13,294 bases of DNA from a bacterium (GTDB taxonomy: Bacteria > JAMOTN01), in contig JAMOTN010000006.1 of the NCBI GenBank assembly GCA_027062325.1, forward strand, positions 1 through 13,294, read 5' to 3'. Positions 1,549 through 13,197 of the stretch are shown in pieces. A program made the position numbers and the translations under genes. Within the stretch, counting starts at the first letter, position 1. Each line of letters opens with the position of its first letter. The notes beneath the pieces are model-generated. The model searched no databases. It was not told where the DNA came from and saw only the letters and a list, made by a program, of their open reading frames with translations.

Positions 1549-2235
1549 TTAAACTCCTAGGTCTTTGACAAGAGAATCGTAGACTCTTGATACTGGACTG
1601 TATCCGTAGCCTGTGTCAAGTTCTTTTGCTTTTATTATATGACTTCTTGCTTCTGTCATTCTCCCTGTGGCAAAGGCTGCAATTGCGAAAAGAGCGTGTG
1701 CTTCTGCTGCATTGTAAGAGAGTCCATGATCTGAAACAATTTGAGAGGTCAAGTCTTTGAGAGGAGTTTGGACTAAGACGTTATAAGCTTCCTGGAAGTC
1801 TCCATCTTGTCCGCGAGCTATCAAAGCACATGCCAAACCAAACTTAGCATCAAAACTTACCTCTTGTGCTTCTTTGAGGTAAGATATTGCTTTGTCGAGG
1901 TCTCCTTTGTATAACCACGCCCAGCCCATTGCTTCTGCTACCTGCTGCTTTTCCGTAGTTGTAGCAGCTGCTGAGTAAAGTTTTGTAAGTTCATCTAAGG
2001 CCTTGTTATATTCACCATTTCTTATGTACTCCCAGCTTTGGGATAAACCGCTTGTTAATGTTGTGTCAAGAGTGTTCATAACCCCCAAGCCGCCACCGCA
2101 ACCGATGATTCCTGCAAGGCTTATTGCCAGCAAGACAAATGCCGTAATTATCACCCTACGCCTCGTCTGCCATACCTGTTCCCTGCGAGGTTTTGCTGGT
2201 AGCTTTTTTAGAAGTTCAAAATCTAACCCCTTCAT
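1549..2235 (-). CDS. Membrane-anchored TPR-repeat protein, possible lipoprotein
   Basis: The protein has 228 residues. A basic, probably cytoplasmic N-terminus (1-27, with PRRE and TRRR clusters) leads into a hydrophobic segment at about 28-45 that ends in IIGC (Cys46). This fits a lipobox, although the charged stretch before it is unusually long, so a simple N-terminal membrane anchor is the alternative. Residues 70-210 are helical with TPR-like repeats, for example AMGWAWLYKGDLDKAISYLK followed by a second Ala-rich unit (AEAHALFAIAAFATGRMTEA). TPR domains bind partner proteins; the partner is not evident here. The ATG has a strong ribosome binding site (AGGAGG seven bases upstream). The gene stands alone between a two-way terminator and a divergent HD-GYP gene. 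No specific family is recognised. Confidence 0.85.
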   Translation of the reverse strand: MKGLDFELLKKLPAKPRREQVWQTRRRVIITAFVLLAISLAGIIGCGGGLGVMNTLDTTLTSGLSQSWEYIRNGEYNKALDELTKLYSAAATTTEKQQVAEAMGWAWLYKGDLDKAISYLKEAQEVSFDAKFGLACALIARGQDGDFQEAYNVLVQTPLKDLTSQIVSDHGLSYNAAEAHALFAIAAFATGRMTEARSHIIKAKELDTGYGYSPVSRVYDSLVKDLGV

Positions 2236-2396: not shown

Positions 2397-3287
2397 ATGG
2401 GAAAAAGGTGTGTTTTAGAGGGAAAAGAGTTGAGTAAAGAGTCAGGATTGAATTTGAAAATTTCCCCAAACGATCTTGGAATTTTAGATTTAAATTTTTT
2501 AGAGCCTTTAAATTTCAAAGTTTTTGTTAAGGCGTTTGTTTCTCAATTAAAAGAATTAGGGTCTAGTAAAGAATTGGAAACTAAAGCATTTGAATGGTTA
2601 GATAAGAATTTTAATTTGTTCACTAATTTTTTAAAAAAAGAACATCACATAATGACAGCAGTTGCATTGTTGAAATTGTTCAGTGAGTCAGATTTGGCAA
2701 GGTGGGATATGAAATTGGAGACAGCAGTTGCCTCTTGTTTGGTTCATGACATTGGTATTCTTTCTGAAATTTACAACTATAGAATAGGTTTACCCCAATC
2801 TTTCAAAAAAGCTATAAAGAATCATCCGCATATAGGTTTTGAGCTGTTAAAAGAGCTTGGATGGTTAGAGGATGACGATTTGATAGAAGCGGCCTTTGGA
2901 GTATGGCAGCACCATGAGAGAGCTTTGGGAAGAGGATATCCTCTTAGGTTGGGAGTAGGTGATATAAATAAATATGCGATTGTTGTTGCAATCAGTGAAA
3001 TGTATGCTTTAGTTATGGCTAAATCAAGTTTGTGGTACAAGAAGATAACAGAGGCTCAGTTTCTTGAAAGGATCAGAGGGGATGCTACTTTTGAGAGATT
3101 TTATCCACTGTTGATAAAAAAACTTGGTGTTTTGGGGAAAGGAAAAGAGGTTCTTTTGTCAAATGGGGAAATAGGAATAGTTAAAACTTCTGGTAAAAAC
3201 GGAGTGTTTGATGTTGAAGTTATAACCAAACGCGGAAGTTTTGCTTTAAAAGTTGATTTTTGGATGGCTGACTTTTCGTTTTACTGA
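2397..3287 (+). CDS. Diverged HD-GYP domain protein (cyclic-di-GMP phosphodiesterase family, possibly inactive)
   Basis: The predicted 296-residue cytoplasmic protein has no membrane segment. Residues 80-220 follow the HD-GYP pattern: EHHIMTAV (82-89), VHDIG (116-120), HPHIGFELL (143-151), HHERALGRGYP (172-182), and a final helix SEMYALVMA. Active family members hydrolyse cyclic-di-GMP at a metal centre. Likely metal ligands His117, Asp118, His143, His172 and His173 are kept. The usual HDIGK Lys is Ile121, the Asp of HHExxDGxGYP is Leu177, and the Asp of the AD-x-Y-D-A helix is Glu201. Activity is therefore uncertain; it may be a c-di-GMP sensor or have changed specificity. The tail VLLSNGEIGIV resembles the short beta segment after many HD-GYP domains. 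The ATG at 2397 has AGGTG five bases upstream; a GTG at 2367 has no good site. The 3' end overlaps the convergent gene by 7 bp. Confidence 0.85.
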   Translation: MGKRCVLEGKELSKESGLNLKISPNDLGILDLNFLEPLNFKVFVKAFVSQLKELGSSKELETKAFEWLDKNFNLFTNFLKKEHHIMTAVALLKLFSESDLARWDMKLETAVASCLVHDIGILSEIYNYRIGLPQSFKKAIKNHPHIGFELLKELGWLEDDDLIEAAFGVWQHHERALGRGYPLRLGVGDINKYAIVVAISEMYALVMAKSSLWYKKITEAQFLERIRGDATFERFYPLLIKKLGVLGKGKEVLLSNGEIGIVKTSGKNGVFDVEVITKRGSFALKVDFWMADFSFY

Positions 3288-4129
3288 TGGTCATTTAACA
3301 CAAGTCTAAGCTTTGCTACAACAGCTTTTTGGCTTGGTATAGTGAGTTTTAATTTTGGAATTTTAGGATTTTCACCAGATATAAGTAAAGTGCTGCCTGC
3401 AATTGGGAATTTTTCGGCTATAACTGCTGCCAGTGACAGTAGGAGGGAGATGGCATATTTATCCTTACCTCGTATTTCGCTTTTAAATTTAACTTTTAGA
3501 TTTGAAAAGGAGTTTATATTATTGATGATAGCTGCATACTTTGCAGGTATTCCAAAAGGAGATGTGTTTTGAAGTTTTACGAATTTTACAGTTAAGAGTG
3601 TTCCTCTTGGAATTAATAGTTCCTCGTTTCCTATCCAGATGTTATCTGCAACTTTATAAATTACCTCTTTGAATTGATTTGTTTTGAGCTTCAGTTTTTT
3701 GGGGTGAAGAGGTACTATGAATATTTCAGTTGTGGGGATGCGTTTTTTGACAAAGGATATGTTTAGTTCTCTTGCTATCTTTTGAGCTGCAGGGAGAATA
3801 GGAGAATCTGAAAATCTGTTAAAAAGTTTATGTTCTAAGCGATCTTTTCGCTTATCAAGTGTTTCTAGGGGGAAGGAGGTATTCCAAACAGCTACTTCTG
3901 CTGCTGAGATTATCCTTATAGATTTTATAAAACCTGAGACCCAGTCTTTACCAAAATGGTATTTTAGACGTTCTAAACGTTGATGTAAGCTGTAATTTTC
4001 AATATTTAATTTTGAAAATGAGAGTTTCTCAACTGTGGAGATGGGAAGATTTTTTGAATTTGAGAAGCTGTTTGCAAAATGAAAGAATGTTAGGAGATAA
4101 AACATAATAACAGTGGTTATGATTCTCAC
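3281..4129 (-). CDS. Secreted protein of unknown function, last gene of the envelope operon
   Basis: The family is not recognised. The protein has about 282 residues and begins with a signal peptide (MRIITTVIMFYLLTFFHFANS). Residues 50-120 contain two divergent copies of an RLxxLE..FG-like motif: LHQRLERLKYHFGK and KRKDRLEHKLFNRFSDS. Similar repeats occur in exported proteins of several diderm lineages (from memory). The C-terminal half looks beta-rich, with the pattern ELLIPRGTLLTVKFV, seen in small exported beta-domains. No catalytic motif is evident. The start is uncertain: GTG at 4129 has GAGGTG six bases upstream and is preferred, while an in-frame GTG at 4138 has almost no site. It begins 33 bp after the PorV-like gene, so it is probably co-transcribed. 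No terminator is visible at its 3' end, which runs 7 bp into the opposing HD-GYP gene. Confidence 0.75.
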   Translation of the reverse strand: MRIITTVIMFYLLTFFHFANSFSNSKNLPISTVEKLSFSKLNIENYSLHQRLERLKYHFGKDWVSGFIKSIRIISAAEVAVWNTSFPLETLDKRKDRLEHKLFNRFSDSPILPAAQKIARELNISFVKKRIPTTEIFIVPLHPKKLKLKTNQFKEVIYKVADNIWIGNEELLIPRGTLLTVKFVKLQNTSPFGIPAKYAAIINNINSFSNLKVKFKSEIRGKDKYAISLLLSLAAVIAEKFPIAGSTLLISGENPKIPKLKLTIPSQKAVVAKLRLVLNDHQ

Positions 4130-4162
4130 ATTCTCCACCTCATGATATTGGGTTGAATTTAC

Positions 4163-5140
4163 TTAGAATTTGATAGAGCCGCCTATAAAGTGTTGTGTTA
4201 AATCTGTATCATAGTCTGCTAAGAATGCGTAGTCAATATAAAACGTATCACTAATTCTTACTCCGAAGCCCAAGTTCAGATTTCCATTTTTAGTTCCCAC
4301 TCTTATGGCGAAGCTGTCATTGACGAATCTTTTTTCGAGTCCAGCTCTAAATTGTAGGTCTCCCATAGTAGAATCTTCATTAGTGATATTGAATATATCG
4401 AGATCAACTGATAATGAGTTGTCCACTTTTACTCCAAATCCTACAGTTATCAAAGTTGGTAGATCGTAAGGAGAGTCTTTTATGATGTTGTCTGCAACTA
4501 CCCCAATATTTATTTTGTCAGTTAGCTTATAAAGAAGGCCAATACCTAGAGCTGTTTCGGTGAAGTCTGTATATTTACCGTGTTCATTTAAATAGTTTGA
4601 ATAATTGACATGACGTACTTTTATTCCCCAGCTGAGTCTTGAACTTTTTAATGTGTCTGCTACCCCAAAAGTTACTTGACGCATCTCTGTGGTTTTGTTT
4701 TGTTCACTGGATATAAAGCCTAATCCGAATACGTATGAGTAAACCTTTTTCTTAGTGGGATTCTCCAGAATTTCTGGATTAGATAGTATGTCCTTTATTG
4801 AGTCAACTTCGTCTACCTCCTGCTCTTGGGAGTAAGCAGCAGCAACTGCCAGAGCATCGTAGGTGGTTGAGTCCCTATCATTTGCTTTGATAGTTGTGGC
4901 GAAGTGTTTGCTCATTTTATTCATGAAGGCAAGGCCTGCTGGATTCCAAAATACTGCGTTAGCATCATCTGATAAACCTACAAATGCCTCCCCCATTCCT
5001 ATTACTCTAACTCCTGCTTCCCCTAAACCAGAAGGGCGTATTGCAGCACCAAAGAGTGTGTTGCTGAGTAGTATTGAAAGAGTGCACACTACGACAAAGG
5101 ATGTTTTAAAAATTTTATAAATTTTATATCTCCGCATCAT
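4163..5140 (-). CDS. PorV/UPF0164-like outer-membrane beta-barrel protein
   Basis: The 325-residue protein has a basic start (MMRRYKIYKIFK), a hydrophobic core and a likely signal-peptidase site near FGA-AI (about residue 32). Next comes the family's N-terminal signature GMGEAFVGLSDDANAVFW, then NPAGLA (48-71), which is characteristic of PorV/PorQ/UPF0164 barrels related to FadL. The rest is alternating amphipathic beta-strand sequence, and the last strand ends HFIGGSIKF with C-terminal Phe, the usual signal for the BAM machinery. In Bacteroidota, PorV carries type IX secretion cargo; no other type IX component is seen here, so that role should not be assumed. The start ATGATG overlaps the upstream TGA, giving a 4-bp overlap and likely translational coupling. 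GGGGGT in the end of the upstream gene serves as ribosome binding site. Confidence 0.88.
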   Translation of the reverse strand: MMRRYKIYKIFKTSFVVVCTLSILLSNTLFGAAIRPSGLGEAGVRVIGMGEAFVGLSDDANAVFWNPAGLAFMNKMSKHFATTIKANDRDSTTYDALAVAAAYSQEQEVDEVDSIKDILSNPEILENPTKKKVYSYVFGLGFISSEQNKTTEMRQVTFGVADTLKSSRLSWGIKVRHVNYSNYLNEHGKYTDFTETALGIGLLYKLTDKINIGVVADNIIKDSPYDLPTLITVGFGVKVDNSLSVDLDIFNITNEDSTMGDLQFRAGLEKRFVNDSFAIRVGTKNGNLNLGFGVRISDTFYIDYAFLADYDTDLTQHFIGGSIKF

Positions 5141-6564
5141 CTGCTACCCCCTGAAACAGTGATTTTTTTGTCTTTATAGTAAAGTGTCAAAGTATCGCTT
5201 GAGGGATCGTAGTCTATTTTCATATCTTCAGTAAATTGATCGGCACTTAAGAACCCTAAATCAATCAACTTTTTCAATGTGATCTTTTTATCGGGACCAT
5301 ATATCACTGTAAACATTTCGCATGCTGTGAGAATTGAAAGGGCTCTTGCTTTAAGGCTAGATGGAACTTCTGATTGTGCTTTGTTTTTAGTTGTTTTATT
5401 TTCGGATTTGTTGCCTAAAGTGCTCGAGGTTACGTTTTGATGGGATGAAGAAGGTGTACTGGTTTGTTGAGTTTGTGATTTTAATGGTGCATCAGAGGGT
5501 TTAGTTACTATATTGGCAGATGGTAAGTTTTTATTTTTATTAGTTTGGGTGTTTTTTGAGCTTTCTTTTTCTATTTTCACATCTCCAAATTTAGGTTGTG
5601 AAGCCATGGTATAATGAGTTTTTTGAGATTTTATAGTGTTGTGCAGGATTTTTGATTGTATTTGAGTTGTTTTTTTGACAGTTGAATTTTTCGTATTAGG
5701 ATTCTTAATATCGAATGATTCAAGAATTCTAGTTTTATAGCACAGCTTTTGAGATTTTGAATTTAGTATATCTATTGCGTTTGGACAGTTGGAAGATAGC
5801 CTTCCTCCAAAAAATTTTTCAGAAGGAGATGACTTGACTTCGTTTATCAAAAATAGGGAGGGGTTTGTTTGGAAGGGGTTGTATTGCATGACAGCTACTG
5901 CTATACGTTTAATATTGCCCAAATTTTTCTTGCGAACAAATATTTCTATTTTATTGTTAATAATCATAATTGAGTCTGGAATTACCAGATCATGACGGTA
6001 CTGGAGCAAAAATTCGTTGTCACTTTTGTTTTCCAATAAATCTTCAATCCACTTTGGATCTGCCGGAGTGACTACGACTGCTTTTGTCCAGCCGCCTTCA
6101 ACTTTGAATAGACGTCCTGGAAGTGTTTCGTATTTGATATCTGACTTGTCAGAAAGTACGTATATATCGATCGCTTGGTTTACAAAATCCCAGTAAAAGT
6201 AAGGAAATTGGTTTCTATATTCGTTGTCTATATCGTCAGAGTAGTAGTCTTTTGTAGTATAGGTTAAGCTGTCTTCTTTAAAGTTTAGATCGCTCCACTT
6301 TGTTATATCTTGAACAAAAGATATGATAAATATGTAGTGAGTTTTGTCTTCTGCAATGGTTATCTTTTTTATGTCAAATTCTCCATCGGTAATTTGGTTG
6401 GTTGTTGGATATTCAAATGATCCGGGACCGTAATCATCTTCCCTAGCATCTTTAAAAGAGGCAATTTTGGATAATGCAAATACTTTACTACTTATAGGCA
6501 TGAAAAAAATTTGAAAAATTAGAACTAGAGTGATCAAAATACCTCCTTTTTTGAAAATTTTCAT
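5137..6564 (-). CDS. Exported glucodextranase C-domain-like protein with long linker
   Basis: This is a predicted exported protein of 475 residues. The signal peptide is about residues 1-30 (MKIFKKGG, hydrophobic core, KVFA). Residues 37-267 resemble the C-terminal module of glucodextranase (Glucodextran_C, Pfam PF09985 from memory): FKDAREDDYGPGSFEYP, then the strand-rich AIDIYVL, GGWTKAVVV and PFQTNPSLFLINEV. That module is regarded as a carbohydrate- or wall-binding domain. No hydrolase domain is attached here, so binding is likelier than catalysis. Residues about 285-405 are a low-complexity Ser/Thr/Asn/Lys/Gln linker. The last 70 residues form a small separate domain (SILTACEMFTVIYG through LKKLIDLGFLSA) of unknown type. 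The ATG at 6564 is nine bases after AGGGAG; ATG 6570 and TTG 6573 are alternative starts. The stop overlaps the PorV-like start. Confidence 0.8.
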   Translation of the reverse strand: MKIFKKGGILITLVLIFQIFFMPISSKVFALSKIASFKDAREDDYGPGSFEYPTTNQITDGEFDIKKITIAEDKTHYIFIISFVQDITKWSDLNFKEDSLTYTTKDYYSDDIDNEYRNQFPYFYWDFVNQAIDIYVLSDKSDIKYETLPGRLFKVEGGWTKAVVVTPADPKWIEDLLENKSDNEFLLQYRHDLVIPDSIMIINNKIEIFVRKKNLGNIKRIAVAVMQYNPFQTNPSLFLINEVKSSPSEKFFGGRLSSNCPNAIDILNSKSQKLCYKTRILESFDIKNPNTKNSTVKKTTQIQSKILHNTIKSQKTHYTMASQPKFGDVKIEKESSKNTQTNKNKNLPSANIVTKPSDAPLKSQTQQTSTPSSSHQNVTSSTLGNKSENKTTKNKAQSEVPSSLKARALSILTACEMFTVIYGPDKKITLKKLIDLGFLSADQFTEDMKIDYDPSSDTLTLYYKDKKITVSGGSR

Positions 6565-6599
6565 ATACATCAACTCCCTGACATTAATTTACATTTCAG

Positions 6600-7271
6600 T
6601 TAATTTATCTCTACCTCGATAACACTGGCTGCGTCATCGCTTTCGTCTTCGCGCTTTGGATTTCCTTTGTCATATATCCATATACCTCCTGTAAAACCAT
6701 TTGAGGAATTCCAGCTTGTTGGATTTACAACGAACTTATACTTGTATATCCCACTTCTTAAAGGAACTTTAACATACCAAACATTGTTGTCGTCTTTTTG
6801 AAGTTTGTAAGGGGTAATGTCCTCCACTTTTCCCCAGTTGTTGAAGTCACCTGCTATATACGCAGACCTTATCGCTACTCCTGCTGCTTCATCGGTTAAT
6901 TTGAATTTTACAAGGGCAATTTTTTCCATAAATTTAGATGCTACAATTACGTTTGATGACTTAACTTGGAGAAGAACTGTTGTATAACTCCTGTCGTATA
7001 GGGAAAAACCTACAGAAGTTGAGTTATCAATAGAATCAATGGGAATTGAGCTGTAAGGGGTTTTTACGGTTGGGGAAAACCACACCCCGTTTGTTGAGAC
7101 CGGATCTATGAGGCACTCTGCTGAGTAACTTCCTGGTTGAAGATGTACTTCGCTTACCCAGATGTAAGAGGTATATGGAGCAAGATCCCAATAAATTGAG
7201 ACAGTATCTGCAACCCATTCTTGAATACATCCTGTAAGTGTCAGAGCTGTTATCATAAGGGCAACTATCAT
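6600..7271 (-). CDS. Lipoprotein with AMPK-beta/CBM48-like glycan-binding domain
   Basis: A hydrophobic N-terminus ends in the lipobox LTGC (Cys15 when counted from ATG 7271), so a lipid-anchored envelope protein is predicted. Residues 19-125 are beta-rich and not assigned. Residues 133-190 match the AMPK-beta/CBM48 glycogen-binding fold: AYIAGDFNNWG, then VWYVKVPLRSGIYKYKFVVN, then SW. The Trp of NNW, the Lys of YKYKF and the later Trp match positions that contact alpha-glucan in the AMPK beta subunit. The start is odd. ATG 7271 has no nearby ribosome binding site and gives a signal peptide with no positive charge. A near-perfect GGAGGTGA lies at 7315-7308, inside the end of the upstream gene. 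It is six bases from an in-frame ATT at 7301, which would add FEKYLIKLT and the missing Lys residues (233 residues). Confidence 0.85.
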   Translation of the reverse strand: MIVALMITALTLTGCIQEWVADTVSIYWDLAPYTSYIWVSEVHLQPGSYSAECLIDPVSTNGVWFSPTVKTPYSSIPIDSIDNSTSVGFSLYDRSYTTVLLQVKSSNVIVASKFMEKIALVKFKLTDEAAGVAIRSAYIAGDFNNWGKVEDITPYKLQKDDNNVWYVKVPLRSGIYKYKFVVNPTSWNSSNGFTGGIWIYDKGNPKREDESDDAASVIEVEIN

Positions 7272-7293
7272 TGTTAACTTGATAAGATATTTT

Positions 7294-9570
7294 TCAAAAA
7301 TTGCAGCTCACCTCCAGGGAAAGCATCTCCTGAGTTTCAGGATATGCGCCGTATTTCTTTATCAGGTATGTAACAGGCTTTGGACTTCCCCATCTTAGAG
7401 TTAAAGATGTATCTTGTGTTGGTTTTATTCTTAAGCTGCTAGTTAGAAGTATGTATGTGTTTAGACGAGTATTATCTTCGAATTTTTTAACATTCCAATA
7501 CTCAATATCCCAATTCCCATATTTTGAGAATGTTTGGCTATATTTTAGGTTTAAGATGTTGTGTCGAACGGGATTATCTGGATCTGTTACCTCTGTTTCT
7601 TTCCACAGTTGATTTTCAATTTTTAAGTTGCCTATTGATCCAATTTTTCTATTAAGAGACAAAGTTAACTCAATGTTTTCTTTTTCCACCATTGAATCAG
7701 AGTTGAATTCGTTCCAGCCAACAGCAGAGTATTTTCTAAAAGCAGATGCATAGATATTTGTTTTTGGAGATGCTGTATAGGAAAGAGATCCTTCTATTGA
7801 GCGTATTTTAAATGTATCACCAAAGTTGTTGCGAGTATCTTTGTCTTCATAATAGGAAAGGTTGAGGGAGGTTGAGAGTTTGTCTGTTAATTTAACTCTG
7901 GAATCAAGTGATATGGATTGCTCACCCTCAGAGTCGGGAAGGGGATATTTTGTGAGACTATATGAAATGTTTGTTGTCATATCCTTTGATAGATTGGCGG
8001 TTATTGAAAAGTTGTAATCGTAGGCTTTGTGTCCATCTGTATTTTTGTTATAAGTTTTATTTTCATCGTTTTTGTCCCATGATTTTTGAAGCATAACTGC
8101 GTCAAGTTTTAAAGATTGGTCTCTGTTTGAAGGGAAAGTGTATTTGTAGCTGATGTGGAACTTAAGTGCGTTTTCACCTAGAATATCTTTTCTGTAATAG
8201 TTGGAATATGATTTGCGTCTGATACTCCAAGGGTTGACATTTAAGTAATTAAAATCCCCTAGGGAGTTGTAAAACCACTTTCCAAAGTTGTAACCATCCA
8301 CTGTGAATCTGAAAGCTCCTTGAGATAGTGAAATTTGCCATTTTGTTCCGGTGTCGGAAAATAATTCGTAAGAGTCAAAGTTTGAAAGATTCAAGACCCA
8401 TGCAGGATTTTTAGATTGCATGTGTTCTACATAAAAACGCAGAGATGTATCTTTAAGTTTTGTATTTCCAAGCAGATCTATTGCAAATATACTGCTGAAG
8501 TTGTTGTCATGGTCGTATGAGTAAGCCACTTCTCCATAAGTTGTACCAAGTTTAAGCGAGAGATTAGCAATGTTGAAAACAGAACTTCTAATTTCTCCGA
8601 AGAATCCATCCCAATTTTCTCCATATAGATCTTTTCCTATCCAGTGAAGTGTTTGAAGTTTGGCTTTGAATTTTCTCAAAAATTTTGCATTTATCTCTAT
8701 TCCTCCCCATGGATCGAAGTAATCTTCTGCCCAGGGAGCTCTTAACCATAAACGTTTAGGATTCCAGACACGTTCTGGATCAGAAGAAGAGGAGTGTCCT
8801 TCATTATGAAAGCCTCTAAAAGTGAACTTGGGATGTTTGAACTTTATGTGAGCTGCATCTGGTATTACGTTTTTATCGTCAAGATCGTTCATTTCAGCGA
8901 TTAATCTGAAATATACTTCTGAGCTTGCAGAAGGATTAAACAATTGATGCAAGGTAATTTTGTGCTTTATGTAGTTTATACCATTTGTGTCGTCTTGTAT
9001 GTCGGTTGTACTTTTGTAATCCCTGACGAACAGGCCTTCCATTGTGTATTCCATTGATAAACTCTTCTTTTCAAGTTTTTCCACTCTTTTTTTGTAATCA
9101 TCAAGTGTTTTTTCAAGTTTTGAGTACTTGAGTCCTAGATCTTCGAGCTCTTTCCTAAACTCCAGCACAAGTTTTTTGATTAGTTCTGCATCTTCTGGAC
9201 TGATCACACCACCAGCTGTTTCAATGTCTTCAAGTTTAGCAACTATTTTTGCTGCTAATAGTGCTAGATCGTAACGCGTGACAAAACTCCTTCCTCTGAA
9301 AGTTCCGTCTGGGTATCCATCTATGTAACCTTTCCGTGCAAGCTCTTCTATTGCTTCATATGCCCAATGTGTTTTTGGCACATCTTTGAATTCTATATCT
9401 TGAGCGCTTGTTTTTTGAAAGGTAATTAATAGGGTAGAGAGTACGAGAACTGCAAATGATAGATAGTATTTGATAAAATTAGCAAAAAAAGGAGTATGAG
9501 AGTGATACTTTTCTTCAGAGAAATTATCTGCTTTAAGCTCCATAGTTGTTGGCATAGATGTTAATTTCAT
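7294..9570 (-). CDS. OmpM-like outer-membrane protein: SLH domain, coiled coil and beta-barrel
   Basis: This 758-residue exported protein is the first gene of the minus-strand operon. A hydrophobic segment (about 34-50) precedes a probable cleavage site after KTSA (56). One SLH domain follows at about 58-115 (FKDVPKTHWAYEAIEELARK, GYIDGYPDGTFRG, VTRYDLALL), which typically binds modified wall polymers. Residues 125-172 are a heptad-rich coiled coil. The remainder, about 173-758, alternates polar and aromatic residues like a porin barrel and ends in Phe (SLEVSCNF). This layout matches OmpM-type proteins, which tether the outer membrane to peptidoglycan in diderm Firmicutes and relatives. The start ATG 9570 follows GAGGGGG. 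An upstream in-frame extension to 9687 lacks a site and overlaps the divergent gene. The 33-residue stretch before the hydrophobic core is unusually long for a signal peptide. Confidence 0.9.
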   Translation of the reverse strand: MKLTSMPTTMELKADNFSEEKYHSHTPFFANFIKYYLSFAVLVLSTLLITFQKTSAQDIEFKDVPKTHWAYEAIEELARKGYIDGYPDGTFRGRSFVTRYDLALLAAKIVAKLEDIETAGGVISPEDAELIKKLVLEFRKELEDLGLKYSKLEKTLDDYKKRVEKLEKKSLSMEYTMEGLFVRDYKSTTDIQDDTNGINYIKHKITLHQLFNPSASSEVYFRLIAEMNDLDDKNVIPDAAHIKFKHPKFTFRGFHNEGHSSSSDPERVWNPKRLWLRAPWAEDYFDPWGGIEINAKFLRKFKAKLQTLHWIGKDLYGENWDGFFGEIRSSVFNIANLSLKLGTTYGEVAYSYDHDNNFSSIFAIDLLGNTKLKDTSLRFYVEHMQSKNPAWVLNLSNFDSYELFSDTGTKWQISLSQGAFRFTVDGYNFGKWFYNSLGDFNYLNVNPWSIRRKSYSNYYRKDILGENALKFHISYKYTFPSNRDQSLKLDAVMLQKSWDKNDENKTYNKNTDGHKAYDYNFSITANLSKDMTTNISYSLTKYPLPDSEGEQSISLDSRVKLTDKLSTSLNLSYYEDKDTRNNFGDTFKIRSIEGSLSYTASPKTNIYASAFRKYSAVGWNEFNSDSMVEKENIELTLSLNRKIGSIGNLKIENQLWKETEVTDPDNPVRHNILNLKYSQTFSKYGNWDIEYWNVKKFEDNTRLNTYILLTSSLRIKPTQDTSLTLRWGSPKPVTYLIKKYGAYPETQEMLSLEVSCNF

Positions 9571-9657
9571 TGCACGCCCCCTCACAATTAGAATTTTCGG
9601 CATTAACTTCTTGTGGTTGAGTGAAGTTGGGGGCTTAATATGAGGGGTGGCTGTATT

Positions 9658-10671
9658 ATGAAGATAGATTTGGGAAATAAGATCCAAGGGTATTTTTCTG
9701 GAAAAAAAGTTTTAATAACTGGTGCTACAGGAACCATAGGAAAAGCTATTCTTAATAAGATACTTAATACAGATGTTGATGTTGTGCGTGTGTTTTCCCG
9801 GGATGAGTACAAACAGTTTAACATGATGCAGGAATATACTGATCCGCGATTGCGCTTTTTTCTTGGTGATGTAAGGGATAAAGAAAGATTAAAATTTGCC
9901 CTTTTGGGAGTTAATGTTGTCATACATTGTGCAGCTTTAAAGCATGTGCCTTTATGTGAGTACAATCCTTTCGAGGCAGTTAAAACAAATGTGTTTGGGA
10001 CTCAAAATCTTATAGAGGTGGCAATTGAGGAGGGGGTTGAGCGCTTTATCACGATAAGTACGGACAAAGCAGTGTCACCTACAAGTACAATGGGAGCGAC
10101 CAAGCTTTTAGCAGAGAGGATGACGGTTTCTGCAAATAATTTCAAAGGAGGTTCTCCGACAAGATTCATGGCAGTGCGCTTTGGTAATGTTTTGGGTTCT
10201 AGAGGAAGTGTTTTAGATTTGTGGGTAAAGCAGGCTAGGAGTGGTTATATTACTCTCACTCATGAAGAGATGGTACGTTATTTTATGAGAATAGAGGATG
10301 CAGCAGAGCTTGTGTTGAAAGCGTTAGTTGTTGGTGAAGGGGGAGAAATTTTTATTCTACCTATGAAAAAAGTTTTTATGAAGGACTTTGCTCGTGCATT
10401 TTGTGATGTTTGGAATGAGCTTACGGGTAGGAGTTTGGATATTAAGAAGATAGGTGTGCGTCCTGGTGAGAAGATGGAGGAGGAACTTGTGACAGAAGTT
10501 GAATTAAGAAGTGCTTTTTTGAAGAATGGAATGATAGCAATTGATTTTAAAAACGATGTAACCATTTCTGAGGAGGATAGGAGTGTTTTAAAAGATAAGT
10601 TGAATGAGTTTATGTCGTATCAGGAGATAAAGGATCTTATAAATGGGTATTTGAAAGGACTGTTTAATTGA
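9658..10671 (+). CDS. NDP-N-acetylglucosamine 4,6-dehydratase (PseB/CapE/LegB-like, extended SDR)
   Basis: This 337-residue soluble enzyme probably converts UDP- (or GDP-) GlcNAc to the 4-keto-6-deoxy sugar. Residues 20-28 form the NAD(P)-binding loop ITGATGTIG. Family-diagnostic stretches follow: FSRDEYKQ (46-53), RFFLGDVRDKERL (66-78), CAALKHVPLCEYNPFEAVKT (91-110), STDKAV (134-139), RFGNVLGSRGSV (174-185) and VRPGEKMEEE (268-277). The catalytic S-Y-K Tyr is replaced by Met145 in MGATK (145-149), an S-M-K arrangement known from WbpM/PglF-type and CapE-type dehydratases. This makes the C5 stereochemistry (retaining or inverting) uncertain. It is the short form without the membrane domain of WbpM. 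ATG 9658 is seven bases after GGTGG; ATG 9640 lacks a site. It starts 87 bp from the divergent OmpM-like gene and is followed after 27 bp by the aminotransferase. Confidence 0.92.
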   Translation: MKIDLGNKIQGYFSGKKVLITGATGTIGKAILNKILNTDVDVVRVFSRDEYKQFNMMQEYTDPRLRFFLGDVRDKERLKFALLGVNVVIHCAALKHVPLCEYNPFEAVKTNVFGTQNLIEVAIEEGVERFITISTDKAVSPTSTMGATKLLAERMTVSANNFKGGSPTRFMAVRFGNVLGSRGSVLDLWVKQARSGYITLTHEEMVRYFMRIEDAAELVLKALVVGEGGEIFILPMKKVFMKDFARAFCDVWNELTGRSLDIKKIGVRPGEKMEEELVTEVELRSAFLKNGMIAIDFKNDVTISEEDRSVLKDKLNEFMSYQEIKDLINGYLKGLFN

Positions 10672-10698
10672 AGATTGTTTTATAGGAGGGTAAAGGAA

Positions 10699-11856
10699 AT
10701 GAGTAAATATAAAATTGAATTTGCCCCAGTGGATTTTTCAGATGCTATTAAATATGTTGAAGAGGTACTGAAATCTGGATGGCTTACTAGTGGAAAGTTT
10801 GTGAATTTAGTGGAAGAGCGATTGAGTGATTATTTTAAGCGTCCATTTTTACTCACGAGTTCATGTACGCACAGCTTGGAGCTTGCTTATAAATTTGCAA
10901 TTGAAAAAACGGAGAAAAATTTATTTGTGGTTCCTACTTGGACTTTTGCTGCCACGGCTAATGCTGCTGTCAATGTGGGAGGAAGGATTGCTTTTTACGA
11001 TGTTGATGATAATTTGAGTGTGGATTTTAAAAGTTTGGCAAGAATTTTGCAAAAACACGGTAATGATGTTGCAGCAGTAGTAACTGTTGATTACTCAGGG
11101 CTTCCTGTTGATTACAAAAAGGTGAGGCATTACATAGATATGTACGCCCCTCAAGCTCTTTTCATTGCCGATTGTGCTCACAGTTTTGGTTCCAGTTATT
11201 TGAATGAGCCAGCCGGTTTTTTTGCGGATATTGCGTGTTTCAGTTTTTATGCCAATAAAAATTTGCCAGCGGGAGAAGGTGGAGGAGTGCTTATAAAGAG
11301 TGAGTGGGAGAGGGATTTTAGATTGATGCGGCTTCACGGTATTAGTAAAGACAGTTGGGCACGATACGGTTCTGGGAAATGGGATTACTCGATAGAGATT
11401 ATAGGGAAAAAGGCGAATATGTCAGATTTACATGCAGCTGTTCTTATGGCTAAGTTGGAAAGATTTGATGAGGATCAGAAGATTAGATTGGCTTATTGGG
11501 CAAAGTATGCAGAGGTAGTGGAAGGAATTGAGGGTGTTAGGATGTTACCTTTGAGTATTGGAGTACGTCGTGGGAATGCTCATCTTGCTGTGTTGCTATT
11601 TGAGGATATAAATAGAAGAGATAGTGTTATGCAGTGCTTGGTCGATGCTGGAGTAATGTTGAGCTTTCACTTTCCGCCTTTGCATATACAGCCTGCTTAT
11701 ACAAGTGAAATGTTTGGAGTTGAAGTTGTTGAAAGTTTTGGAAGTATAGCTGAATATTATTCTAACAGAGTATTTTCGCTTCCGATATCTGCTTATTTGG
11801 AGCCCGAGGATGTTGATTACGTATGTGAGAATTTGTATAGATGCTTACATACTTGA
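10699..11856 (+). CDS. DegT/DnrJ/EryC1/StrS-family nucleotide-sugar aminotransferase (PseC/LegC-like)
   Basis: This PLP enzyme of 385 residues probably aminates C4 of the keto sugar made by the preceding dehydratase. The fold-type I pattern is complete: SSCTHSLELAY (54-64) for cofactor phosphate binding, PTWTFAATANA (79-89), ADCAHSFGSSY (157-167) with Asp158 facing the pyridine nitrogen, and SFYANKNLPAGEGGGV (182-197), in which Lys187 is the expected Schiff-base lysine. The C-terminal HFPPLHIQPAY (324-334) and the SLPISAYLEPEDVDYV region (360-375) are also typical. ATG 10699 follows AGGAGG (10684-10689) by nine bases. The gap to the dehydratase is 27 bp, so the two are co-transcribed. The neighbouring NeuB-family gene points to the pseudaminic/legionaminic-type pathway rather than perosamine or another amino-sugar route, but substrate and product stereochemistry cannot be read from the sequence. 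Confidence 0.92.
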   Translation: MSKYKIEFAPVDFSDAIKYVEEVLKSGWLTSGKFVNLVEERLSDYFKRPFLLTSSCTHSLELAYKFAIEKTEKNLFVVPTWTFAATANAAVNVGGRIAFYDVDDNLSVDFKSLARILQKHGNDVAAVVTVDYSGLPVDYKKVRHYIDMYAPQALFIADCAHSFGSSYLNEPAGFFADIACFSFYANKNLPAGEGGGVLIKSEWERDFRLMRLHGISKDSWARYGSGKWDYSIEIIGKKANMSDLHAAVLMAKLERFDEDQKIRLAYWAKYAEVVEGIEGVRMLPLSIGVRRGNAHLAVLLFEDINRRDSVMQCLVDAGVMLSFHFPPLHIQPAYTSEMFGVEVVESFGSIAEYYSNRVFSLPISAYLEPEDVDYVCENLYRCLHT

Positions 11857-11872
11857 ACGATACCTCTATAAT
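11844..11872 (+). promoter_or_regulatory. Possible internal promoter before the NeuB-family gene
   Basis: A perfect -10 box TATAAT lies at 11867-11872. CTTACA (4 of 6 matches to TTGACA) lies at 11844-11849 with an ideal 17-bp spacer. It overlaps the last codons of the aminotransferase gene and would give a leader of about 37 nt. The 59-bp gap here is the longest between genes of this operon, which fits a second start of transcription. Confidence 0.45.
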
Positions 11873-11915
11873 TATTAGTGGGGTGCAGTATCTTAGAAGT
11901 TAAGGAGTGAATTTA

Positions 11916-12908
11916 ATGGCCTATGGTGCTGGTGCAGTGAAATTGATAGCGGAAATAGGGATAAATCACAATGGAGATTTTAAGTTGGCAGAAAAGATGG
12001 TTTATGCAGCTTATGCAGCTGGTGCAGATGTAGTTAAGTTTCAATACATTGTTCCGGAGCGTTTGTATTCTGTTGAGAATGCAAATCTGAGGGAATTTTT
12101 TAAACCATTTGTTTTGAGTTTGAGGGATTTCAGGAGGCTAGCGGATTTAACGCATAGCCTTGGAATGGAATTTATGTTGAGCGTTTTTGATGAGGACAGC
12201 GTAGCAGAGATTGTCAATATTGTGGATTACTACAAAATTGCTTCTTTAGAGATAAATTATAAGTTACTGTTGGAAGAAGTGGCTAGGTACTCCTCTGAGT
12301 ATGGTAAGACTGTTGTGATTTCTACTGGAGCAAGTGGTGTAGAGGAAATTAAAAGAGCTTATGAGTTGTTGTCTTCAGAGCTTGAGAGTTACCAATTGTA
12401 CGTGTTGCATTGTATATCTGGTTATCCTACCTACATAGAAAATTTAAATTTGGGAGCAATAGAGCTCTTAAAAAAAGAACTTAGTACAGAGAATATAGGG
12501 TTGTCTGATCACACATTTGGAATAGAATCCAGTATTTTGGCAGTGTGTATGGGGGCGGTTATGATTGAGAAGCATTTTACCATTGATAGGACACTAAAAG
12601 GCCCTGATCAGATGATTTCACTTGAGCCTTCTGAGTTTTTTAGATTGAGAAGGTTTTTGGATAGCTGGATGAACATAGTTGATGAGAGGAAGATCGAAGA
12701 AGAGGTTGTAGAGGGTGTTAAGGTTTGGAAAAGAAAACTTGGGGTAAAGAAAGGAGTAAAGAGTGGAGAAAAGTTAACTAAGGAGGTTCTTACTTCTTAC
12801 CGGGCGCTTGATGGCATAGATGCGTGGTTAGTAGAGGAGGTAATTGGTAAAGAAGTAAAAAGGGATCTTGATCTAGGAGGAGTTTTAAAGTGGGATGATT
12901 TAAAGTAA
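11916..12908 (+). CDS. NeuB-family nonulosonic acid synthase (sialic/legionaminic/pseudaminic acid synthase)
   Basis: This 330-residue enzyme condenses phosphoenolpyruvate with a six-carbon (di)acetamido sugar to give a nine-carbon 2-keto acid. The TIM-barrel motifs appear in order: LIAEIGINHNGD (10-21), GADVVKFQ (36-43), YKIASLEI (106-113), VVISTGASGVEEI (133-145), VLHCISGYPT (163-172), GLSDHTFG (195-202) and MIEKHFTID (216-224). His199 and His220 correspond to the metal-binding His pair of NeuB. GPDQMISLEP (229-238) closes the barrel. A C-terminal SAF/antifreeze-like domain is present (about 273-330), with Arg296 in SYRALDG at the place of the substrate-contacting arginine. The motifs are mixed between NeuB/LegI and PseI types, so the exact acid is not assigned. 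ATG 11916 follows AAGGAG by eight bases. Confidence 0.93.
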   Translation: MAYGAGAVKLIAEIGINHNGDFKLAEKMVYAAYAAGADVVKFQYIVPERLYSVENANLREFFKPFVLSLRDFRRLADLTHSLGMEFMLSVFDEDSVAEIVNIVDYYKIASLEINYKLLLEEVARYSSEYGKTVVISTGASGVEEIKRAYELLSSELESYQLYVLHCISGYPTYIENLNLGAIELLKKELSTENIGLSDHTFGIESSILAVCMGAVMIEKHFTIDRTLKGPDQMISLEPSEFFRLRRFLDSWMNIVDERKIEEEVVEGVKVWKRKLGVKKGVKSGEKLTKEVLTSYRALDGIDAWLVEEVIGKEVKRDLDLGGVLKWDDLK

Positions 12909-12930: not shown

Positions 12931-13197
12931 ATGATAAGGGATGATGGTTTGACGCTTGAAGATTTAGAAGAGGCTTTGAAAATGCACAAATATGAAAAGA
13001 AAATTGTTGAGATGATGAATGATAGGCAGTACGAAGTATTCAAAGAAAATTTAACCATTGGTCAAGTTGCTGATACTAGAAAAGATGCTCTTAGATTGTT
13101 GAAGATAATGATTGCCTTGAATTTGAAGATGCAGCAGGAGATGAAGCTTAAAGGTGGAAATAACGGTAATAGTGGGAGTGGAAATGGATCGAAATGA
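12931..13197 (+). CDS. Small protein of unknown function in the nonulosonic acid operon
   Basis: The family is not recognised. It has 88 residues, no signal peptide and no membrane segment. Residues 8-40 and 50-73 look like charged amphipathic helices (LTLEDLEEALKMHKYEKKIV; RKDALRLLKIMIALNLKMQQ). The C-terminal 15 residues are a flexible Gly/Asn/Ser tail (GGNNGNSGSGNGSK). A real gene is supported by GGGGAG eight bases before the ATG, by the 22-bp gap after the NeuB-family gene, and by the tight packing of the operon. A helical adaptor or assembly partner is possible, but nothing in the sequence fixes a role. The stop codon lies inside an ATGA, but the reading frame that opens there closes after 15 codons. 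Confidence 0.7.
   Translation: MIRDDGLTLEDLEEALKMHKYEKKIVEMMNDRQYEVFKENLTIGQVADTRKDALRLLKIMIALNLKMQQEMKLKGGNNGNSGSGNGSK

Follow-up and report, generated by a model that had tools for sequence, protein, structure and literature searches.

The window analysed here is a whole contig of 13,294 nucleotides (JAMOTN010000006.1; assembly GCA_027062325.1, GTDB lineage JAMOTN01) from a bacterial genome of 1.65 Mb that is 84% complete. Five genes, each encoding an exported protein, lie on the minus strand between positions 3281 and 9570. They are transcribed in the order g5, g4, g3, g2, g1, with spacings of 22, 26, -4, and 24 bases. These genes and one further candidate are as follows:

g5: 7294-9687 as listed (likely start ATG 9570), minus strand, SLH domain plus barrel
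g4: 6600-7271, minus strand, outer-membrane lipoprotein with an AMPK-beta/CBM48-like E-set domain
g3: 5137-6573, minus strand, exported Glucodextran_C-domain protein with a long low-complexity linker and a short C-terminal part
g2: 4163-5140, minus strand, PorV/PorQ-like (FadL-type) outer-membrane barrel
g1: 3281-4138, minus strand, exported protein, diverged family member
TPR lipoprotein: 1549-2235, minus strand, possible extra (sixth) member

By inspection, all five proteins (5/5) have a hydrophobic export signal at the N-terminus. Open reading frames, Pfam/NCBIfam matches, and N-termini agree with a preliminary description of the locus as five coupled genes for exported proteins with these domains. 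With its listed start (9687), g5 would run into the divergent gene; ATG 9570, which is preceded by GAGGGGG, is therefore the more plausible start. Translation of g4 may begin farther upstream, at ATT 7301 (7299-7301, minus strand), which follows a GGAGG and would make the gene overlap the g5 stop. Promoter and terminator scans of the window gave no more signal than shuffles. A reading of the locus as a defense system was dropped after PADLOC returned no match.

The Glucodextran_C domain of g3 (PF09985, 1.3e-21) passes its gathering score clearly (77.6 bits vs 22), and the g3 family profile matches glucodextranase 1ug9 at 2.3e-14. Elsewhere in the window genome, a GH57 protein (L070 3-2258) also carries a C-terminal Glucodextran_C domain. 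The g4 product has the lipobox LTG|C, with the mature protein starting CIQE, and its residues 136-184 match AMPK1_CBM (2.5e-7; 31.3 bits vs a gathering score of 26.8, passed).

Conservation of the cassette

A Glucodextran_C search gave matches in 50 of 386 sampled genomes, three of which repeat the window order. These three belong to one phylum, referred to below as the second phylum, of which 39 genomes were examined. Of the 31 loci fetched from this phylum, 23 keep g5, g3, and g2 collinear on a single strand. Seven of the other eight are cut short by the end of a contig, and G406 is a true break. A lipoprotein gene, where called, almost always separates g5 from g3; Muiribacterium (L123/L134) is an exception, in which no separate lipoprotein gene was called and the Glucodextran_C protein carries a lipobox. 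One further full cassette is found in UBP16 bacterium UBA6123, and the other carriers are Riflebacteria, Ozemobacter, Rifleibacterium, Wallbacteria, Muiribacterium halophilum, and ADurb.Bin243.

Altogether, the gene order SLH-barrel, lipoprotein, Glucodextran_C protein, PorV-like barrel is kept in 25 distantly related bacterial genomes, and all compared genomes are related to the window genome at the level of domain, none more closely. The most conserved member is g2 (about 24-40% identity between window and relatives, vs 19-24% for g3 and 21-27% for g5). When the window g2 and its counterparts in the three cassette genomes of the 386-genome sample were combined into a profile, 36 of the 39 second-phylum genomes yielded an ortholog (E 5e-33 or better); in the 386-genome sample itself, orthologs with E below 1e-25 were confined to the window genome and three members of the second phylum. 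The cassette genes are co-inherited, and distances between genomes computed from g2, from g3, and from g5 correlate closely (r 0.90-0.95). Single-protein searches for g4 and g3 in 31 sampled genomes returned scattered domain matches only, and a scan of genome contigs with the g5 barrel alone returned no relatives. The cassette is conserved beyond chance: synteny, on which the preliminary description had staked its proposal, recurs in 23 second-phylum genomes and in UBA6123.

Such an order could also persist because abundant envelope proteins share a high level of expression without working together, and the highly variable length of the lipoprotein (125-503 aa at the g4 position across relatives) would fit this explanation. 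We regard it as improbable, given the strict order over several families in two phylum-level lineages and the splitting of a g3 domain into a neighboring gene. The latter concerns a cysteine-rich, pilin-like mini-domain with which g3 ends in several families, whereas in family f259 it stands as a gene of its own immediately behind g2. Examples of the mini-domain are L048 8749-9207, L120 9025-9522, and the C-terminus of L063 8043-9242. Fission of a domain into a neighboring gene is typical of interacting partners, and this case points to a functional linkage within the cassette. In the window g3, the mini-domain gave no significant match.

The last gene, g1, is less firmly part of the set. It has no match in Pfam/NCBIfam, and its AF2 model was unusable (pLDDT 47). 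Single-sequence searches matched three second-phylum genes (E 4e-4 to 8e-4) whose family is encoded two genes past g2 in 19 Ozemobacteraceae-type loci; this family was not found downstream of g2 in Wallbacteria-type, Muiribacterium, and f259 loci. We regard g1 as a diverged homologue of this downstream family, with weak similarity to its relatives, and as a probable but weaker member of the cassette. A genome from Zodletone Spring labelled Deltaproteobacteria (L138 1-1316) has, at the edge of a contig, part of a g2 gene (43% identity to the window copy) immediately followed by a member of the g1 family. This genome (L138/G422) was rejected as the carrier of a complete cassette, since its g2-g1 pair lies at the contig end and the protein that best matches g5 there is a different SLH protein.

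The TPR lipoprotein of the window (1549-2235) is colinear over ~200 residues with a homologue in genome G256 (L063 12851-13504; BLASTP 5e-15) that lies directly upstream of the cassette there, and the window gene may therefore belong to the same system. In Ozemobacteraceae-type genomes (L057 12227-14114 and other f119 loci), genes for Lgt (prolipoprotein diacylglyceryl transferase) and HPr kinase follow the cassette.

In the window, the cassette lies back to back with divergent PseB-like, PseC-like, and NeuB-like genes (9640-12908). The ORF after the NeuB-like gene (12931-13197, plus strand, 88 aa) weakly matches the N-terminal domain of RNA polymerase subunit Rpb5 (6.7e-4, below cut-off). The arrangement had suggested that the adjoining nonulosonic acid pathway may make a glycan which the cassette would display or assemble at the surface. 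The adjacency itself is confirmed, but the functional link finds no counterpart elsewhere: the neighborhood is not conserved, no NeuB or PseC homologue occurs in ~690 kb of cassette loci, and a CapD-like gene lies near one cassette only, in another arrangement. Display of such a glycan is thus a very improbable role.

Barrels, predicted wall anchor, and carbohydrate-binding-like modules

The g5 protein (7294..9570, minus strand) combines an SLH domain at its mature N-terminus (Pfam SLH, 2.8e-12) with a predicted helical or coiled segment and a predicted large outer-membrane beta-barrel. An AF2 model of low confidence (pLDDT 58) places helices at residues 43-110, followed by ~28 barrel strands up to the C-terminal residues. 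Residues 78-205 match OmpM1 and SlpA in a PDB search. When the model was compared with solved structures, it resembled generic porin-like outer-membrane barrels with rmsd near 8, which is not discriminating, and SlpA was absent among the matches listed.

In sequence, the barrel alone matches the Wallbacteria cassette protein at 1.5e-22, whereas a smaller OmpM-like SLH-barrel paralog of the same genome (L068 9890-11677) matches g5 over residues 81-206 only, that is, over the SLH domain and stalk, with no sequence match beyond. This contrast argues that the cassette barrel forms a distinct family rather than a general porin; judged by sequence, g5 is not the ordinary OmpM porin of its genome, and its barrel is specific to the cassette.

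The resemblance to the tethers OmpM (Veillonella OmpM1) and SlpA (Deinococcus) lies in architecture: an N-terminal SLH domain, a helical stalk, and a C-terminal barrel, the latter two taken for g5 from the low-confidence AF2 model. The g5 SLH domain matches 8bys and 7zgx in sequence and 8bz2 in fold. Unlike OmpM and SlpA, g5 has a cassette-specific barrel sequence, coexists with an ordinary OmpM-like protein, and is followed by genes for a lipoprotein, a Glucodextran_C protein, and a PorV-like barrel. Diderm Firmicutes also have SLH-OMP genes inside a conserved envelope locus, the OmpM-containing cluster, together with outer-membrane biogenesis genes, as described in part of PMC5007114; unlike in the cassette, no Glucodextran_C or PorV-like partner is mentioned in that part.

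The arginine and tyrosine of the SLH motif TRYD in g5 are invariant in 14 orthologs. Since the same arginine also occurs in Negativicute OmpM proteins, which bind polyaminated peptidoglycan, any assignment of a ligand to g5 is a prediction. In other SLH proteins, the arginine of this motif contacts pyruvate (PMC10628300). Each of the cassette genomes tested (15/15) encodes a CsaB-type polysaccharide pyruvyl-transferase domain (PS_pyruv_trans), although the CsaB-like protein of the window genome scores under the CsaB equivalog cut-off. In that genome, the pyruvyl-transferase gene lies directly beside LpxK (L163 3782-5613), whose presence supports a lipid-A outer membrane.

With 3-7 SLH domain matches in every cassette genome tested, g5 is not the only candidate tether. 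The single OmpA-C match in the window genome is MotB, and several relatives carry more than one OmpA-domain protein. The absence from the window genome of an OmpA/Pal tether besides MotB is provisional because the genome is 84% complete.

The second barrel, g2, resembles the PorV/PorQ family of type IX secretion over nearly its full length (NF033709, 1.7e-15), yet scores below the curated cut-off (57.5 vs 90 bits). PDB profile searches with g2 and with g1 found no credible relatives. As g4 also matches the T9SS plug model weakly (5.2e-6, below cut-off), the PorV-like barrel might act as the shuttle of a type IX-like system for secretion or surface attachment, with the E-set lipoprotein in a plug-like role. 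This reading fails for want of SprA, which scored above cut-off in 0/15 cassette genomes (short sub-threshold matches only, the window genome being 84% complete), and we hold it to be highly unlikely.

In pairing outer-membrane barrels with a surface lipoprotein that has a carbohydrate-binding-like domain, the cassette is reminiscent of SusC/SusD loci. Unlike these, it lacks a TonB receptor, SusD, and a hydrolase. Neither a hydrolase nor a TonB receptor is encoded in the window, in line with the preliminary description, which had set the locus apart from Sus loci, and neither a SusC TonB receptor nor SusD emerged when the five genes and most of their neighbors were scanned against Pfam. The g3 protein likewise differs from the C-terminal module of glucodextranase (1ug9) in being free-standing, without a catalytic domain, and membrane-attached in several relatives, where g3 is a lipoprotein itself.

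These modules could nonetheless capture or take up alpha-glucan or a related glycan, in which case g4 and g3 would be the surface-exposed sugar binders and the barrels g5 and g2 the pores. By sequence inspection and alignment, the window g4 appears to keep the FNNW tryptophan, the YKF lysine, and the following tryptophan of AMPK-beta-type modules. In two families, an extra secreted protein with tandem AMPK1_CBM and CBM48 domains is encoded directly upstream of g5, and Glucodextran_C occurs elsewhere in amylolytic contexts and in the genome's own GH57 protein. Most relatives share a C[IVLF]Q motif at the lipid cysteine of the protein encoded at the g4 position, with CIQE in the window and several families. 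CBM48-like matches, clear in the window, are weak in L128, L124, and L057; the Riflebacteria lipoprotein reaches AMPK1_CBM at E 0.15 only and is without the lysine and the second tryptophan, and the f259 lipoprotein tested has no CBM match.

Most cassette lipoproteins do not keep the sugar-contact residues, and across the 31 loci the cassette has no constant neighbor encoding a hydrolase, TonB receptor, or sugar transporter. The binding or display of an alpha-glucan, as first proposed for the window, is not supported as a general function of the cassette, and we consider glycan capture or uptake rather unlikely. The carbohydrate-binding-like folds are most likely accessory modules.

A putative outer-membrane complex

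The preservation of one gene order across distant genomes suggests that the proteins together build a single outer-membrane complex. We consider it likely, with appreciable room for doubt, that the five genes form a conserved module for such a complex, centered on an SLH-anchored barrel; its assembly, ligand, and function are predicted from sequence. The SLH domain of g5 would most likely grip a pyruvylated wall polymer in the periplasm, and its large barrel would sit in the outer membrane next to the PorV-like barrel of g2. The E-set protein g4 and g3 could dock on both barrels as accessory modules, and g1 would be a further exported, probably periplasmic partner. The complex may anchor or organize the outer membrane or form a large gated channel, in either case distinct from the ordinary OmpM porin of the same genomes.

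A bolder and distinctly speculative possibility is that the cassette encodes a dedicated wall-anchored machine for translocation or envelope organization, so far undescribed, in which a giant SLH barrel and a PorV-like barrel are capped by the E-set lipoprotein and the Glucodextran_C protein. Such a machine, shared by Riflebacteria, Wallbacteria, Muiribacterium, and the window lineage, would be analogous to, but unrelated in make-up to, SprA-PorV-plug or OmpA/Pal. The combination had not been recognized as a described system in the preliminary description, and searches of open-access full texts turned up no account of this cassette.

How the outer membrane is held and organized in diderms outside the model groups is an open question, for which SLH-barrels have been proposed as the ancestral tether. 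The cassette supplies a concrete and deeply conserved set of candidate partners for an SLH-barrel in lineages for which metagenomes are almost the only source of knowledge. A vague "SLH porin" annotation thereby becomes a complex that can be tested, and several hypothetical proteins are placed in context at once.
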